From Acidimicrobiales bacterium (GTDB lineage: Bacteria > Actinomycetota > Acidimicrobiia > Acidimicrobiales > Palsa-688): DNA of 52,650 nucleotides. The DNA is taken from assembly GCA_035533095.1 (NCBI GenBank), contig DATLUM010000009.1, positions 1 to 52,650 of the forward strand, given 5' to 3'. The stretch's first letter is position 1, and each line of letters begins with the position of its first letter. The translations under genes and the position numbers were made by a program. The notes below the pieces were generated by a model. The model saw nothing but the letters and a program-made list of their open reading frames with translations. It ran no database searches and was not told where the DNA came from. Below, in pieces: positions 17,561-39,620 of the stretch.

Positions 17561-18481
17561 CTACACGCCCGGCGCCACCGCGTTCTCCAAGCGAGCCGCC
17601 GCAGACGGCACCAGGTATGCGCGCACCGCTCCGATCAGCTGCTCCACGGGGGGCACCAGGGACAGCAGCCACCTGGCGAACATGCCGTCGTCCATCCACG
17701 CCGCCATCCGCGCGTCGACGAGCCCTTCGAGGTTGCCGCCGGCGGCCTGGGCGCGGATCTCCGGCCAGGACCAGGCGTTGGCCGCGATGCGGATCATGTC
17801 GGCAAGCTCGTCCGGCTTCTCCACGTCGCCCTCCACGCCGTCCTCGGCGTCCTCGCCGCCCGTGGGTCCGCCCAGGTCGCCCGCGAGAAGCCTGGCCAAG
17901 GGGTGGAGGCGGGTCACGTCGGACCACGTCAGAGGCCTCGGTGATTCCATCGCCGCCTCCAGCACGGACGCGATCCAGGCGGCCGCGTGCAACTCTGCAG
18001 CCGGCTCCGGGGGAGGCGGCGTGGCCAGACCCAGGCAGCGCTTGAGGCAGTCCAGCAGCCGGCCAGCCTCGGGCGCCGAGGTGCCGCGGACGCCATGCGG
18101 GCCCTCCAGGTGCCATCCCACGTCACCGGATCGACCCACGACGCAGCACATCCGGATCCGCGACCCCTCTATCTGGGCGAGGTCCTGGTAGACGTCGCCG
18201 AAGCTGCGCCCGTCACCCGACCAGCCGCCGGCCGCGGAAGGGTCGACCCGGAGTCGCCCGGTGGCGACAACCCCGACGGCGACGCACTCGGGCGGCGCCG
18301 TCCAACCGAGCAGCGCCTGAGGTTCGCTGCTCGCGTCCACAGCGAAACCCGACTCCTCGTCATCGTCGTCGAAGACCCTGACCCAGGTCGGGACCCCCTG
18401 GTCGCGCACCTCGTCCCCGAGGGTCTCTAGCAGCTCTTCGGCCAACTGTTGCCAGCCGGAAACCCGGATCGGTTCGTACAT
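17561..18481 (-). CDS. hypothetical protein, 306 residues
   Basis: No family recognised. The ATG at 18481 is preceded by GGAGGTGGAG. The product is acidic, with no signal peptide or clear membrane segment. A first half of mixed strands contains FDDDDEESGF and CCVVGRSGDVGW; a second half is helical and Ala-rich (AAWIASVLEAAMESPRPLTWSDVTRLHPLARLL, shown only in part as a helical stretch), with an acidic linker GGEDAEDGVEGDVEKPDE. The C-terminus has VPPVEQLIGAVRAYL. It stands alone between two convergent or terminator-bounded units, downstream of aspS on the same strand. Codon use resembles the neighbours, so it is a true gene. Confidence 0.7.
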   Translation of the reverse strand: MYEPIRVSGWQQLAEELLETLGDEVRDQGVPTWVRVFDDDDEESGFAVDASSEPQALLGWTAPPECVAVGVVATGRLRVDPSAAGGWSGDGRSFGDVYQDLAQIEGSRIRMCCVVGRSGDVGWHLEGPHGVRGTSAPEAGRLLDCLKRCLGLATPPPPEPAAELHAAAWIASVLEAAMESPRPLTWSDVTRLHPLARLLAGDLGGPTGGEDAEDGVEGDVEKPDELADMIRIAANAWSWPEIRAQAAGGNLEGLVDARMAAWMDDGMFARWLLSLVPPVEQLIGAVRAYLVPSAAARLENAVAPGV

Positions 18482-18675
18482 TCGGCTCCACCTCCACGCT
18501 GTCGTGCTGATTTGGCACTGCGGGGGTGGGTCCGAAACCCCGATATGAGGAGACCCGGGGCGAACCTACCAGCGACGCGCGACGGCCGCGAGCGGAGTCG
18601 CGCCGGCGGGCCGGGCGCAGACCCCCCGACATCTCGGGCAGCGCAATCACGACTCTCGTGATATTTCAATCTGAC

Positions 18676-18741
18676 TTTTGAGGGACGGTCCTGTTTTGAG
18701 GGACGTAGCCGTCGTGAGATGACGCCTGTGTCCCGCAAAAA
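18676..18741 (+). repeat. 66-bp dispersed palindromic element, copy 1
   Basis: Starts TTTTGAGGGACGG and ends GTCCCGCAAAAA. It aligns without gaps to the minus strand of 38049-38114, with 54 of 66 bases identical by hand count. The left arm (TTTTGAGGGACGG) is present twice, 18 bases apart. The inner part folds as GAGGGAC, then CCGTCGT / ATGACG, then GTCCCGC. It lies in the 348-bp gap (18482-18829) between aspS and the hypothetical gene; the rest of that gap holds the tandem repeat at 18742 and, from 18482 to 18675, nothing recognised beyond the hypothetical gene's upstream region. Confidence 0.75.
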
Positions 18742-18834
18742 CCCGCCGGCGCCGGCGCCCCGCCCTCTAAAACCCGCCGGCGCCGCCCCGCCCTCTAACC
18801 CGCCGGCGCCGGCGCCGGCGCCCCGCCCCCTAAT
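18742..18834. repeat. GC-only tandem repeat overlapping the aspS stop
   Basis: Three successive units of 31, 26 and 36 bp (18742-18772, 18773-18798, 18799-18834). Each runs CCCGCC, a variable number of GGCGCC blocks (2, about 1 and 3), CCGCCC, then CTAA. The CTA of the third unit is the aspS stop codon read on the minus strand, so the repeats look like copies of the gene's last bases. Confidence 0.8.
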
Positions 18835-20638
18835 CCGCCGGCGGCACGACCCGAAGGTGCAACTCGGCGAGCTGCGAGGGCAGGACCTCGCTCGGCGCGC
18901 CCATGAGGAGGTCCCTGGCCCCCTGATTCAAAGGAAACGCGATCACCTCGCGCAGGTTCGCCTGATCCTCCAGCAGCATCAGCAGCCGGTCGAAGCCGGG
19001 GGCGATACCGGCGTGGGGCGGCGGACCGTAGTGGAAGGCGTTCCACAACGCCGGAAACGACTCCCTCACCCGCTCGGGACCGTACCCCGCTATCTCGAAC
19101 GCCGCCTCCATCACCTCGGGAAGGTGGTTGCGGACGGCGCCCGACGACAGCTCGACGCCGTTGCACACGAGGTCGTATTGGAATGCCAGCACGTCGCCGG
19201 GATCGGAGGACCGCAGCGCCTCGAGGCCGCCCTGCGGCATCGAGAACGGGTTGTGCGAGAACTGCCACCCACCGTTGTCCGCGTCCGGTTCGAACATGGG
19301 GAAGTCCACCACCCAGCAAAAAGACAGCGCGTCGGGGTCTCCCAGTCCGAGCTCCCGGCCCAAGGCGCTGCGCCGCTCACCGAGGACCGAAGATGCCGCG
19401 TCGGCCGGCCCTACGACCACCAGCACGGCGTCTCCTGCCTCGGCCTCCACCGCCGACGACAGAACCTCGGCCTCTTCGTCGGTCAGCTTCTTGGACAGCG
19501 ATCCTCGACGGCCGTCGGGGTCCAGTTGCAGCCACGCGCCGATGGCGCCGGCCTTACGTGCGGAATCCGCGAACTCGTCGAACCACTTGCGCGGACGCGA
19601 AGCGCCCCCAGGCGCGCGCAGCGCTCTGATCGAACGCCCGGCAGACGGCGCCTCGGCGAAGATCGGTAGTTCGGTGCGGCCGCCCAGCGCCGCGCTCACG
19701 TCCTCTATCTCCAAGCCGAACCGCAGGTCCGGCTTGTCCGTCCCGTACCTCGCCACCACGTCAGCGAATGCCAGCCTCGCAAACGACCCCACCGCCTTCT
19801 TCGTCGAGCATTCCTCCACCACCCGGTTCATCAGCAGCTCGACTTCCTCGAACACGTCCTCCTGGGTCGCGAAGGCCATCTCGAGGTCGATCTGGTAGAA
19901 CTCGCCGGGGCTGCGATCCGCACGGCTCGCCTCGTCGCGGAAGCACGGGGCGATCTGGAAGTAGCGCTCGACGCCTCCGACCATCAGCAGCTGCTTGAAC
20001 TGCTGGGGGGCCTGGGGGAGCGCGTAGAACTCGCCGGGGTACAGCCGGCTCGGCACCAGGAAGTCGCGCGCCCCTTCAGGCGAGGACGCGGTGAGGATCG
20101 GCGTCTGCACCTCGAGGAAGCCCCGTGACGACAGATGTTCCCGGACGACGGTCGCCAGGCGCGCTCGCGCCGCCAGCCGTTCGACCAGCGGGCCCCTGCG
20201 CATGTCCAAATAGCGGTAACGAAGCCGCGCCTCCTCACCCACGTCGGTGTCGCGCTCGACCGGGAACGGCAGCACGTCCGCCGACGAAAGTATGTCGACC
20301 GACTGCACCGTCACCTCGACCTCGCCGGTCGCGAGCTTGGGGTTCACCGTCTCGGCGGGCCGATGCACCACCGAGCCGCGGACGCTCACGACGCTTTCCA
20401 GGCGCAACGACGTCAGCATCTCGAACGCCGGAGAATCGGGGTGCGCGACGAGCTGAACGACCCCGCCCGCCTCGACGCCTCCCGCGTCGCGCAGGTCGAT
20501 GAACAGCAGCCCGCCGTGGTCGCGCTTTGCCGCGACCCACCCGGAAAGCAGAACGCTGCGCCCGGCATCGCCGGCGCGCAGCGCCCCGCATCTCACGTCT
20601 CTGTAGTTGTTCACGGCCAGCGGTCGGGTGTCCTCCAT
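18830..20638 (-). CDS. aspS: aspartyl-tRNA synthetase
   Basis: Charges tRNA-Asp (possibly also tRNA-Asn) in the cytoplasm. The 602 residues match the bacterial type. An N-terminal OB-fold anticodon domain (LLSGWVAAKRDHGGLLFIDLRD) comes first, then the class II core with motif 2 (APCFRDEASRADRSPGEFYQ) and motif 3 (GIAPGFDRLLMLL), with the bacterial GAD insertion between. The start is ATG 20638; NNYRDVRCG follows. A strong hairpin ends two bases before the ATG, and no Shine-Dalgarno sequence lies at normal distance except in that hairpin's 5' arm. The C-terminal stop lies in a GC tandem repeat. Confidence 0.97.
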   Translation of the reverse strand: MEDTRPLAVNNYRDVRCGALRAGDAGRSVLLSGWVAAKRDHGGLLFIDLRDAGGVEAGGVVQLVAHPDSPAFEMLTSLRLESVVSVRGSVVHRPAETVNPKLATGEVEVTVQSVDILSSADVLPFPVERDTDVGEEARLRYRYLDMRRGPLVERLAARARLATVVREHLSSRGFLEVQTPILTASSPEGARDFLVPSRLYPGEFYALPQAPQQFKQLLMVGGVERYFQIAPCFRDEASRADRSPGEFYQIDLEMAFATQEDVFEEVELLMNRVVEECSTKKAVGSFARLAFADVVARYGTDKPDLRFGLEIEDVSAALGGRTELPIFAEAPSAGRSIRALRAPGGASRPRKWFDEFADSARKAGAIGAWLQLDPDGRRGSLSKKLTDEEAEVLSSAVEAEAGDAVLVVVGPADAASSVLGERRSALGRELGLGDPDALSFCWVVDFPMFEPDADNGGWQFSHNPFSMPQGGLEALRSSDPGDVLAFQYDLVCNGVELSSGAVRNHLPEVMEAAFEIAGYGPERVRESFPALWNAFHYGPPPHAGIAPGFDRLLMLLEDQANLREVIAFPLNQGARDLLMGAPSEVLPSQLAELHLRVVPPAD

Positions 20639-36942: not shown

Positions 36943-37497
36943 TTACCGCTTTGCGCGCTTCGCCTTTGGGGGGGTGTAGCGGCGATTCGGTGTGGGCGCC
37001 TTGGGGCGATTCGAGCTGTCGTCTTCATCCTTTTTCGACCGCTTCCGGCGCGCGGATCGCGCGGGAGGTCTTGTGGATCCGCCCGCCTTGGCCTGCGCGA
37101 TTGCGGCTTTTCGCTGTCGTTGCGTCAAGAGCAGCGCGTACACCAGCGGGAAGACGATCGCTATGACGTGCATCGATTGCACCGAATTGGGTCCACGCGG
37201 AAAAGTCACGAAAAATGCCGCGATGACAGCCGCGAATGGTGCAATGAAGCGGTTGCGCGTTCTTAGTATCGGCAGCAAGGCAACCGCCGCGATCAGCCCA
37301 ATGATCTGGAGTGTCGTTTGGGGGTGGGTTGGAGCGCCGGTTCCGTGGCGGATCAAGAAGTTCGCGATCGCGACCGCGATGAGGATGGCGGCCACGACGT
37401 GGCCGTAGAGGAACTCGTTGCCCTGCATGGTGCTCGGCTTCGCCTGTGGCGAGGTGCCCGCCCCGTTGGTCGCCGTGGAGCTGCTGCCGTCGCTCAA
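36943..37497 (-). CDS. hypothetical membrane protein with basic tail
   Basis: 184 residues, no family recognised. Four hydrophobic segments lie at about 30-50, 62-78, 84-100 and 106-124. The C-terminal 60 residues are strongly basic and disordered (ARRKRSKK, PPKAKRAKR), probably cytoplasmic and able to contact nucleic acid or acidic lipids. The ATG overlaps the stop of the preceding gene (ATGA), which encodes an acidic protein, so the two are likely made together; a basic and acidic pair could interact. Confidence 0.65.
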   Translation of the reverse strand: MSDGSSSTATNGAGTSPQAKPSTMQGNEFLYGHVVAAILIAVAIANFLIRHGTGAPTHPQTTLQIIGLIAAVALLPILRTRNRFIAPFAAVIAAFFVTFPRGPNSVQSMHVIAIVFPLVYALLLTQRQRKAAIAQAKAGGSTRPPARSARRKRSKKDEDDSSNRPKAPTPNRRYTPPKAKRAKR

Positions 37498-37973
37498 GCC
37501 TGCTCCTCGCTGCCGCTGTGCCCGTCGCCGGGCTGGCGTTCAACGCCGGGAGGTTTGGTCCGGTGGTCACCGGAGTTGCCCGGCAGCAGCCATGGCCGGA
37601 CATTGACCACGCTCTGCTTGGGGCGCCCGTATTCGAAGTCCGCTTCGACGGGCAGATCCTGCGGCGGCTCTCCGGAGGTCTCCATGACCACGCTCGGCTC
37701 GTCCCTCTTGGGTTCGAAGACCTGTTGCAGCCCGAGGGCGAACCCGGTCAGGATCGCGCCGGTTGCGCTTCGCCGGCGCCAGGCCTCGACCTTGCTGGGA
37801 AGAGCCGTGTGCGGTTCGCCGTCCTCCTCGTCGGCGGGGAACTCGTAGAACTCGTCTTCGCCGCCCAACTCGTCCAGCGGGTCCAGCGGCTCCAGCGGCT
37901 CCAGCGGGTCCGGCGGGTCCAGCGGGTCGCCGGAGTCGCCGTTGTCTCCGTTGCCGGTACCCGTCTCGTCCAC
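37494..37973 (-). CDS. hypothetical acidic protein with DPLEPL repeats
   Basis: 159 residues, no family recognised. Residues 13-35 are a run of Asp/Glu-Pro-Leu triplets coded by 9-bp DNA repeats (37861-37935). An acidic segment follows (EDEFYEFPADEEDGE), then VEAWRRRSATGAILTGFALGLQQVF, which may be an amphipathic or weak membrane helix. The rest is polar. It is translationally coupled to the basic membrane protein gene after it. Intact frame and coupling favour a real gene. Confidence 0.6.
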   Translation of the reverse strand: MDETGTGNGDNGDSGDPLDPPDPLEPLEPLDPLDELGGEDEFYEFPADEEDGEPHTALPSKVEAWRRRSATGAILTGFALGLQQVFEPKRDEPSVVMETSGEPPQDLPVEADFEYGRPKQSVVNVRPWLLPGNSGDHRTKPPGVERQPGDGHSGSEEQA

Positions 37974-38048: not shown

Positions 38049-38114
38049 TTTTTGCGGGACAGAGCCGTCGTCTGATGACGGATCCGTCCCGCAAAACGGA
38101 TCCGTCCCGCAAAA
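38049..38114 (-). repeat. 66-bp dispersed palindromic element, copy 2
   Basis: Minus-strand partner of the element at 18676-18741. It reads TTTTGCGGGACGG twice, then an inner hairpin (CCGTCAT / ACGACGG), then GTCCCGCAAAAA. On the plus strand the outer arms pair as GCGGGAC (38054-38060) with GTCCCGC (38086-38092), and T/A runs at the base extend the stem. It lies in the 180-bp gap between gltD and the acidic-protein gene. Confidence 0.75.
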
Positions 38115-38153: not shown

Positions 38154-39620
38154 CTACGCCTGGGGCAGCGGCGCCGGCAGGAGGGTGGCGCCGGCGAGGA
38201 AACGGTCCACCGCCGCGGCTGCGGAGCGGCCCTCGGCGATCGCCCAGACGATCAGGCTCTGACCTCTGCCGGCGTCGCCGCACACGAACACACCAGGGAC
38301 GTCGGTCTCGTAAGACGGCGACCGTGCGATGGTCCCCCGTGACGTCGTCGACGCTCCGAACGCTGACGCGAGCGCCGGCTCCGGACCCGCGAATCCGAGC
38401 GCCAGCAGCACCAGTTCGCACTCCAGCTCGAACTCGGTGCCCTCGATCGGGTCGAAACGAGGCCGCCCGTCGACCTCCGACATCTCGACCTCGCATGCGC
38501 GCAACCCGCGGATCGCCCCCGAGCCGTCGTCGATGAACTCGAGCGTGTTGACCGCGAACACCCTCTCGCCGCCCTCCTCGTGTGCGGACGAGGTGCGGAA
38601 GATCAGCGGCCAGGTCGGCCAGGGCGTGGATGGGTCGCGCAGGTCGGGAGGGCGGGGCATGATCTCGAACTGGTGGATCGACTTGGCGCCCTGGCGGTGC
38701 GCCGTGCCGAGGCAGTCCGCCCCCGTGTCGCCGCCGCCGATGATCACGACCCGCTTGCCCGTGGCGGTGATCGGAGTGGCGGACGCCGGGTCAGGCGCGT
38801 TGACTGCGCGGTTCGCCGGCGGGAGGTATTCCATCGCGTGGTGGACGCCGCGAAGCTCGCGACCGGGGATCTGCAGATCGCGCGGCACGGTGGCTCCGAC
38901 AGCAATGACGACCGTGTCGTGCAACGACCGGACGTCCGCGGCCGACACACAACCCGGTCCTGTCTCCGGACCTACGGATACGCCGGTCACGAAAGCGGTT
39001 CCTTCCGCCTCCATCTGCTCGAGCCGGCGGTCGAGGAACCGCTTCTCCATCTTGAACTCGGGGATCCCGTAGCGAAGCAAGCCGCCTGGGCGGTCGTCGC
39101 GCTCGTACACGGTTACTGAGTGGCCGGCCCTCGTGAGCTGCTGCGCGGCGGCCAGACCCGCCGGCCCGGAGCCGATCACCGCCACCCGTTTGCCCGTCTG
39201 CTTCTCGGGCACGACCGGCTGGACCCAGCCCTCGTCCCAGGCCCGGTCGATGATGGTCACCTCGACCTGTTTGATCGTCACCGGATCGGAGTTGATCCCC
39301 AGCACGCAAGCCGCTTCGCAGGGCGCCGGGCAGAGCCGTCCGGTGAATTCGGGGAAGTTGTTCGTGGCGTGGAGTCTCTCGATGGCCGAGCGCCACTGGT
39401 CGCGGTAGACGAGGTCGTTCCAGTCGGGGATGAGGTTGCCGAGCGGGCAGCCGTCGTTGCAGAACGGTATGCCGCAGTCCATGCAGCGGCTCGCCTGGGT
39501 CTGCAGGCGCTCCGTCGGGAACGGCTCGTACACCTCCTTCCAGTCGCGCAGACGCACGGGTACGGGCCGCCGCTGGGGGAGTTCCCTTCCCGCTTCGAGG
39601 AAACCGGTGGGCTTACCCAT
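38154..39620 (-). CDS. gltD: glutamate synthase small subunit
   Basis: Beta subunit of NADPH-dependent glutamate synthase: feeds electrons from NADPH through FAD and 4Fe-4S clusters to the large subunit. 488 residues. N-terminal cysteines in [22 protein letters not shown] and [10 protein letters not shown] bind clusters; the FAD fold is [15 protein letters not shown] and the NADPH fold [14 protein letters not shown]. The start overlaps the gltB stop by 8 bp, so it is the second gene of a gltBD operon. Confidence 0.96.

Follow-up and report, generated by a model that had tools for sequence, protein, structure and literature searches.

The window analysed here, i.e., the whole stretch of 52,650 nucleotides, is the complete contig C9 of a 142-contig, 3.44-Mb draft genome. 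Two copies of a short sequence lie in it in opposite orientation, both in intergenic gaps: copy 1 is 88 nt beyond the stop codon of aspS, and copy 2 is 39 nt beyond that of gltD (Table 1; the names aspS and gltD are those of the initial annotation, adopted without a family search). In a repeat search of the window, the two aligned over 66 nt without a gap, with 54 of the 66 positions (82%) complementary; this pair topped the 25 inverted repeats listed, the runner-up covering 71 nt at 72%. When copy 1 was used as a blastn query against the whole genome, copy 2 was retrieved with an E value of 4.1e-12. Both searches agree with the initial annotation, which had reported an ungapped match of 66 bases in opposite orientation with 54 identities; the placing of both copies between genes, just past aspS and gltD, was likewise confirmed. 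Each copy is also palindromic in itself, with a core of 47 nt.

Table 1. Positions of the two copies, their boxes and their neighbours in the window
Feature	Position	Strand	Remarks
Copy 1, three boxes (outer-left, inner-left, inner-right)	18676..18741	+	
Copy 1 outer box TTTTGAGGGAC	18676..18686	+	
Copy 1 inner box TTTTGAGGGAC, 18 bp from outer box	18694..18704	+	
Copy 1 inverted inner box TTTTGCGGGAC	18730..18740	-	
Copy 1 palindromic core, 47 nt, CGTC-N7-GAC centre	18694..18740	+	
G+C-rich direct repeats abutting copy 1, at the place expected for a fourth box	18744..18833	.	Repeat families D8, D17; belong to the surplus DNA at this site (gap comparison)
Copy 2, three boxes	38049..38114	-	
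Copy 2 inner box TTTTGCGGGAC	38050..38060	+	
Copy 2 inverted inner box TTTTGCGGGAC	38086..38096	-	
Copy 2 outer box TTTTGCGGGAC, 18 bp from inner box	38104..38114	-	
Copy 2 palindromic core, 47 nt	38050..38096	+	
aspS, upstream neighbour of copy 1	18830..20638	-	26/31 other genomes searched have relatives with 43-81% identity (in G015 as two pieces)
306-aa gene, no match to Pfam, on the downstream side of copy 1	17561..18481	-	Adjoins aspS also in the three closest sister genera having both
gltD, upstream neighbour of copy 2	38154..39620	-	
159-aa gene, downstream neighbour of copy 2	37494..37973	-	In relatives, 7 loci have a homologue near gltD

Other features of the window were also recorded. 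The interval 18744-18843 holds G+C-rich direct repeats of 27 nt (three times) and 35 nt (twice), i.e., families D8 and D17, which reach into the end of aspS; by eye, the three closest relatives showed none of them in their orthologous gaps. A short hairpin-like stretch of G and C (TCGGGG..GG.CC..CCCCC; 18520-18543, minus strand) lies just before the 306-aa gene; three sister genera have it, by eye, in the corresponding position, and it possibly represents a regulatory leader. The octamer palindrome CGCCGGCG occurs 51 times in the window (1-52650) against 10.0 expected, a count reached by none of 100 dinucleotide shuffles; its over-representation recalls HIP1 of cyanobacteria.

Blastn searches with copy 1 and copy 2 located 12 copies in the genome, two of them in C9 (C9a and C9b) and the others in C27, C49, C54, C63, C69, C71, C75, C106, C119 and C142, with E values between copies as low as 3.8e-18. 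A sequence-only profile (R1) built from the 12 copies recovered the same 12, plus a tandem tail in C63, and its next-best place had an E value of 0.044 (150 of 2267 first-look candidates were scored). Copies beyond the pair in the window therefore exist, although the family of tens or hundreds that had been foreseen comes down, by blastn and profile, to 12. The reading that two palindromes had been paired by chance had nothing in its favor beyond the initial annotation having two copies only; it is refuted by the copy number, along with the E values and the fixed spacing of the boxes described below, and we regard it as virtually impossible.

The full element is about 85 bp long and contains four boxes, TTTTGNGGGAC, two per arm and 18 bp apart, with the arms inverted. 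The order is thus outer box, 18 bp, inner box, CGTC-N7-GAC centre, inverted inner box, 18 bp and inverted outer box; the box itself has 11 letters, and the next letter is usually R. The 12 copies align over 85 nt without gaps. In this alignment the inner boxes are present in 12/12 copies on both sides, and the outer boxes in 11/12 on the left and 10/12 on the right, all 21 of the latter being 18 bp from the inner box. Because both copies in the window are without one outer box, the initial annotation saw 66 bp; its unit is indeed palindromic, but is an element of 85 bp and four boxes in a three-box form. The exact box TTTTGNGGGACR occurs at 35 sites genome-wide, 33 of them inside the 12 elements, and a reversed control gave 0 sites. 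The two outside the elements are single boxes in C41 and C77, which fall in what appear by eye to be a transposase gene and a tRNA-modification gene, respectively. In the copy in C63 (8935-9020, L029), the right arm is expanded to several extra tandem units in steps of 17-18 nt; this arm is possibly a slippage hot spot.

The neighbours of the copies, identified as Pfam matches (aspS and gltD as in the initial annotation), are diverse. Convergent genes flank the copies in C119 (lactate/malate dehydrogenase and isocitrate/isopropylmalate dehydrogenase) and C71 (Tim44-like and glucosaminidase). Genes running in the same direction are found at C106 (aromatic amino acid lyase and urocanase, here hutH and hutU), C142 (tryptophan synthase alpha and AbiEi-like) and C54 (cytochrome b and FtsK), and divergent genes at C27 (esterase and MpaB-like) and C75 (alpha/beta hydrolase and a frame without family). 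The copy in C63 lies next to a gene for a thiamine-pyrophosphate enzyme and then the contig end, while those in C69 and C49 adjoin a polyketide-cyclase-like gene and a histidine kinase gene, respectively, with no gene having a family on the other side. In ten of the 12 copies, one or more called genes have their 3' side towards the element. At two places, C54 and C75, a neighbouring open frame extends back over the element, but the Pfam match of that frame begins beyond the element, so that we call all 12 copies intergenic. No function or orientation is shared by the neighbours of the 12 copies and, since convergent, co-directional and divergent gaps are all occupied, any effect on the host is probably slight.

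The boxes are far more constant than what lies between them. Over 45 boxes (a count that excludes one false box of C9a, removed by hand), GGGAC deviates in 3/225 cells and TTTTG in 11/225, whereas N differs from C in 19/45 boxes and spacer cells depart from the majority in 65/120 (all 12 rows, with the three arms that lack an outer box counted in). No deviations were seen in the centre, CGTC/GAC (0/84). In the outer-left boxes TTTTG deviates in 8/55 cells and GGGAC in 1/55. The cores diverge by 9-30% between copies, with the boxes intact.

Conservation of pairing was assessed on the same 12 copies. The covariation score, 0.122 versus 0.145 in shuffled alignments, was equalled or exceeded by 471 of 500 shuffles, and 7 pairs had two-sided changes versus 11.1 in shuffles; compensatory base-pair changes, as expected of a structured RNA family, were therefore not found above shuffles in these copies. 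When partners were slid as a control, the palindrome had 75.6% of its cells paired versus 40.6-48.4% in the slid versions, and a score of 0.122 versus 0.049-0.103. We take that this excess is due to the palindromic consensus itself, and it does not count against a hairpin. The two arms of one element are complementary at 75.4% of positions and arms of different elements at 77.1%; because an element's own arms match no better than foreign ones, N and the spacers seem to be free on each side separately. As palindromes do, all 12 copies folded as RNA below their own shuffle means (z from -2.00 to -9.65), although some shuffles folded as well for C9a (6/200), C142 (3/200) and C106 (1/200). No match to Rfam was obtained at the sites at the gathering threshold.

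These results bear on an RNA element, i.e., a transcribed hairpin at the 3' ends of genes that would act as mRNA stabiliser, attenuator or terminator. Such a hairpin would fit the fold energies, the better pairing of the palindrome than of its slid versions, the location of 10 of the 12 copies at a 3' side, and a terminator-like stem whose end falls on the outer-box T-run in both window copies (one site each, with 0.4 and 0.2 expected). However, covariation does not exceed that of shuffles, N breaks its own pair in 5/12 copies, own arms are no more complementary than those of other elements, the copies in C27 and C75 lie between divergent genes, and the T-run comes before the hairpin rather than after it, on both strands. 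The conserved RNA fold that the initial annotation had suggested looking for is thus not borne out by covariation, and we consider an RNA element very unlikely. With a nearly invariant GGGAC, varying N and spacers, and no covariation above that of shuffles, it is the sequence of the boxes and not the hairpin that seems to be conserved, as for a DNA-binding protein; from this pattern of substitutions we read the boxes as a putative DNA site for a protein.

In the relatives searched the family was not detected. Among 61 genomes (its own, 31 of the family and 29 of the order), its own alone had matches at an E value of 1e-3. The exact inner-pair pattern, which detects 9 of the 12 copies, occurred, out of 397 genomes from the order, in its own alone, and 71 loci from relatives, 299,945 bases in all, contained no exact box. 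Orthologous gaps were compared at three of the 12 sites, i.e., aspS, gltD and hutH-hutU, in sister genera, which are too distant for exact empty-site junctions. None of these gaps contains the element, in line with the empty sites in relatives that had been envisaged at the outset, and in the closest genomes the gaps are shorter. The three closest sister genera have 116, 118 and 127 nt between aspS and the 306-aa gene, compared with 348 nt here; this neighbour of aspS was found in 6 loci of relatives, the other three gaps being estimated at 21, 48 and 849 nt. Between gltD and the 159-aa gene there are 180 nt here versus about 64 nt in G014 (starts uncertain), and in 5 of the 7 loci of relatives with a homologue of the latter it lies at most about 125 nt from the stop of gltD, the other two being at about 0.75 and 1 kb. 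The hutH stop and the hutU start are 214 nt apart here, compared with 19 nt for G007 and 46 nt for G001; hutH is directly upstream of hutU in 3 of 16 other hutU loci (L170, L171 and L176), none with the element. Where gltD and aspS are on one contig they are 17 kb apart in G014 and 29 kb in G007, compared with 17.5 kb here. The surplus DNA, about 220-230 nt at aspS and 170-195 nt at hutH-hutU, is larger than the element, so that the gained unit was not simply 85 bp; to judge from the gap lengths, further DNA, G+C-rich at aspS, either came along with the element or arose beside it.

What might have moved the element was sought in several ways. Its own genome has no Y1 (IS200-like) transposase (PF01797, 0 matches). 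PF01797 occurs in 13 of the 61 genomes, and the 30 loci fetched from relatives are without TTTTGNGGG, GGGACGGWWC or their complements, so the REP-type (RAYT) transposase proposed as a check was not linked to the element. The initial annotation had recognised no IS or REP class; its description of a dispersed family of unknown mover stands, with 12 places and no RAYT link. In the draft genome, no IS was seen to carry the exact box at its ends. Target-site duplications were not found in 8 of the 12 copies, i.e., the four-box ones, leaving aside C9a, C9b, C69 and C63; the best score was 6 against a null mean of 7.4, with 199 of 200 nulls reaching or exceeding it. Plasmids and phages yielded no relative by blastn, and three patterns gave 0, 0 and 1 match in viral contigs. 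The single viral match falls in a 606-aa reading frame, a phage terminase by eye, and had an R1 E value of 2.1e-5 over 29 nt with 57 kb searched; since a match of such a pattern length is expected in a scan of the whole collection, we took it as chance.

A scan of the named genome collection with the inner-pair pattern gave 22 stretches, none of which (0/22) had the exact outer box beside the pair. Two bins of uncultured Clostridia accounted for twelve of them (11 and 1). We take the first bin to hold a different, structure-conserved family, in which pairing is kept through two-sided changes (GAGGGACGC/GCGTCCCTC, ATGGGGCGC/GCGCCCCAT and GAGGGATGC/GCATCCCTC); its palindromes, GATTTTTGAGGGACGC...GCGTCCCTCAAAAATC, measure about 54-56 bp and show compensatory stem changes (L103:545-600, L106:6385-6438, L106:6669-6722 and others among L089-L109). 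The other 10 stretches were from cyanobacteria (four) and one each from Shimia, Armatimonadetes (inside a long reading frame), Lacticaseibacillus, Rossellomorea, Verrucomicrobiota and Thermoactinomyces. Cyanobacterial palindromes, TTTTGGGGGACTT...AAGTCCCCCAAAA, lie by CCCCCAA or TTGGGGG-like stretches in L097, L100, L107 (Phormidesmis priestleyi) and L095, three of them in one genome.

Ends of Tn7-like and Tn5053-like transposons carry several phased transposase sites, and plasmid iterons are tandem boxes. By description, not by sequence, the element resembles both in its tandem boxes, its period of about 18 bp and its inverted pair, but no transposon body, Rep gene or transposase was seen beside the elements. 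An iteron reading, for which the motif is TGAGGG, was rejected since N is A in 8/45 boxes, so that A is not conserved. As for the literature, the box strings turned up only in papers with unrelated titles, and among the titles returned none concerned this element.

According to PMC10969869, miniature inverted-repeat transposable elements (MITEs) are shorter than 500 bp, with terminal inverted repeats and with target duplications that flank at least the young copies and fade with age. As an 85-bp palindrome, the element has the size and the terminal inverted repeats of a MITE, and it is also non-coding, intergenic and dispersed. It differs in lacking target duplications in the 8 copies scanned, in having no related IS that we could find, in its arms of phased boxes and in its 12 copies. 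On this evidence we judge it unlikely that the elements are ends or remnants of one or more IS, i.e., a MITE of a known IS family with its master missing from the assembly. Their palindromic form, length of 85 bp, intergenic sites and absence from the relatives searched would suit such an origin, and a repeated IS may be missing from a draft assembly in 142 contigs. Against it are the lack of target duplications in 8 of the 12 copies, the occurrence of the exact box just twice outside the family, singly (exact boxes, draft assembly), and the plasmid, phage and viral searches, with their one chance match.

With REPs and REPINs (GTAG-tagged and RAYT-mobilised) the element shares a palindromic form and extragenic sites, mostly beyond gene ends. 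Unlike them it has no Y1 transposase, is 85 bp long with four boxes, and has 12 copies, versus a usual REP copy number of more than 100 (PMC2817692); an unpaired GTAG-type tag at the end of a 20-40 bp palindrome was absent, by eye, from the 85-nt alignment. The CGTC-tagged REPs have stems of 8-9 bp, loops of 4-5 nt and CCA tails (PMC3733652). They are like our element in that they have no dedicated transposase known, occur mostly as inverted pairs and conserve CGTC; their unpaired CGTC tag, 8-9 bp stem and CCA tail are absent from the 85-nt alignment. In our element CGTC is at the centre of the palindrome and not in an unpaired terminal tag. It behaves much as a MITE or REPIN does, but lacks a defining feature of each among those tested, so that we file it under neither; it is one of the broad kind of dispersed palindromic intergenic repeats.

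Our preferred reading, to which we give about an even chance, is that the palindromes are a dispersed, non-autonomous element about 85 bp long, which this genome acquired at intergenic sites after the genus split from its sister genera. The boxes would be bound by a DNA-binding protein for which TTTTG and GGGAC matter and N does not, with two to four protomers sitting on the arms and pairing the ends. The most economical candidate for the mover would be a recombinase or transposase, acting in trans to copy the element, which may now be lost, unassembled, or of a kind outside those looked for. The remaining nine sites would also have been gained. In the simplest account, a small passive element would thus have been copied to 12 places by a protein gripping its phased boxes, the mover being no longer visible.

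The main tension in this reading is that the boxes are intact in spite of the 9-30% divergence of the cores, which should not be seen in dead copies diverging since their insertion. Either the copies were made recently, from masters that differed among themselves, or every site is being maintained, the latter being more novel. Maintenance would be expected if the boxes were host binding sites kept by selection, i.e., if a chromosome organiser, nucleoid protein or regulator on phased boxes at 12 places served the cell, a real possibility that we nevertheless doubt. Copies diverging after insertion should lose boxes as fast as spacers, yet GGGAC is nearly invariant beside variable spacers and N, and outer-left boxes lose TTTTG before GGGAC; in addition, neither a mobility gene nor a target duplication was found. 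On the other hand, the sites were not found in sister genera and are absent at the three compared, which would be unusual for a core chromosome function; the neighbours have no common function or orientation, so that a regulon is unlikely; and diverse active masters would also give constraint on the boxes.

More speculatively, and with considerable doubt, the element could be a novel type of chromosomal landing array of phased, inverted TTTTGNGGGAC boxes in 18-bp steps, putatively read by a genus-specific DNA-binding protein, with selection keeping the boxes intact at each site and N and the spacers drifting. Gained after the split from the sister genera, it would be a young system, either chromosome-organising or derived from a mobile element.

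Bacterial genomes commonly harbour small orphan palindromic repeats for which no mover is known. The layout of this one helps to separate two readings that are commonly confounded, i.e., conservation of hairpin pairing and conservation of an array of boxes, and the data favor the box array. That reading makes the putative binding protein a concrete target, for which the 85-bp element could be used as bait. If the protein is a recombinase, it would be of a kind outside those tested; if it is not, the boxes would mark a young chromosome-binding system.
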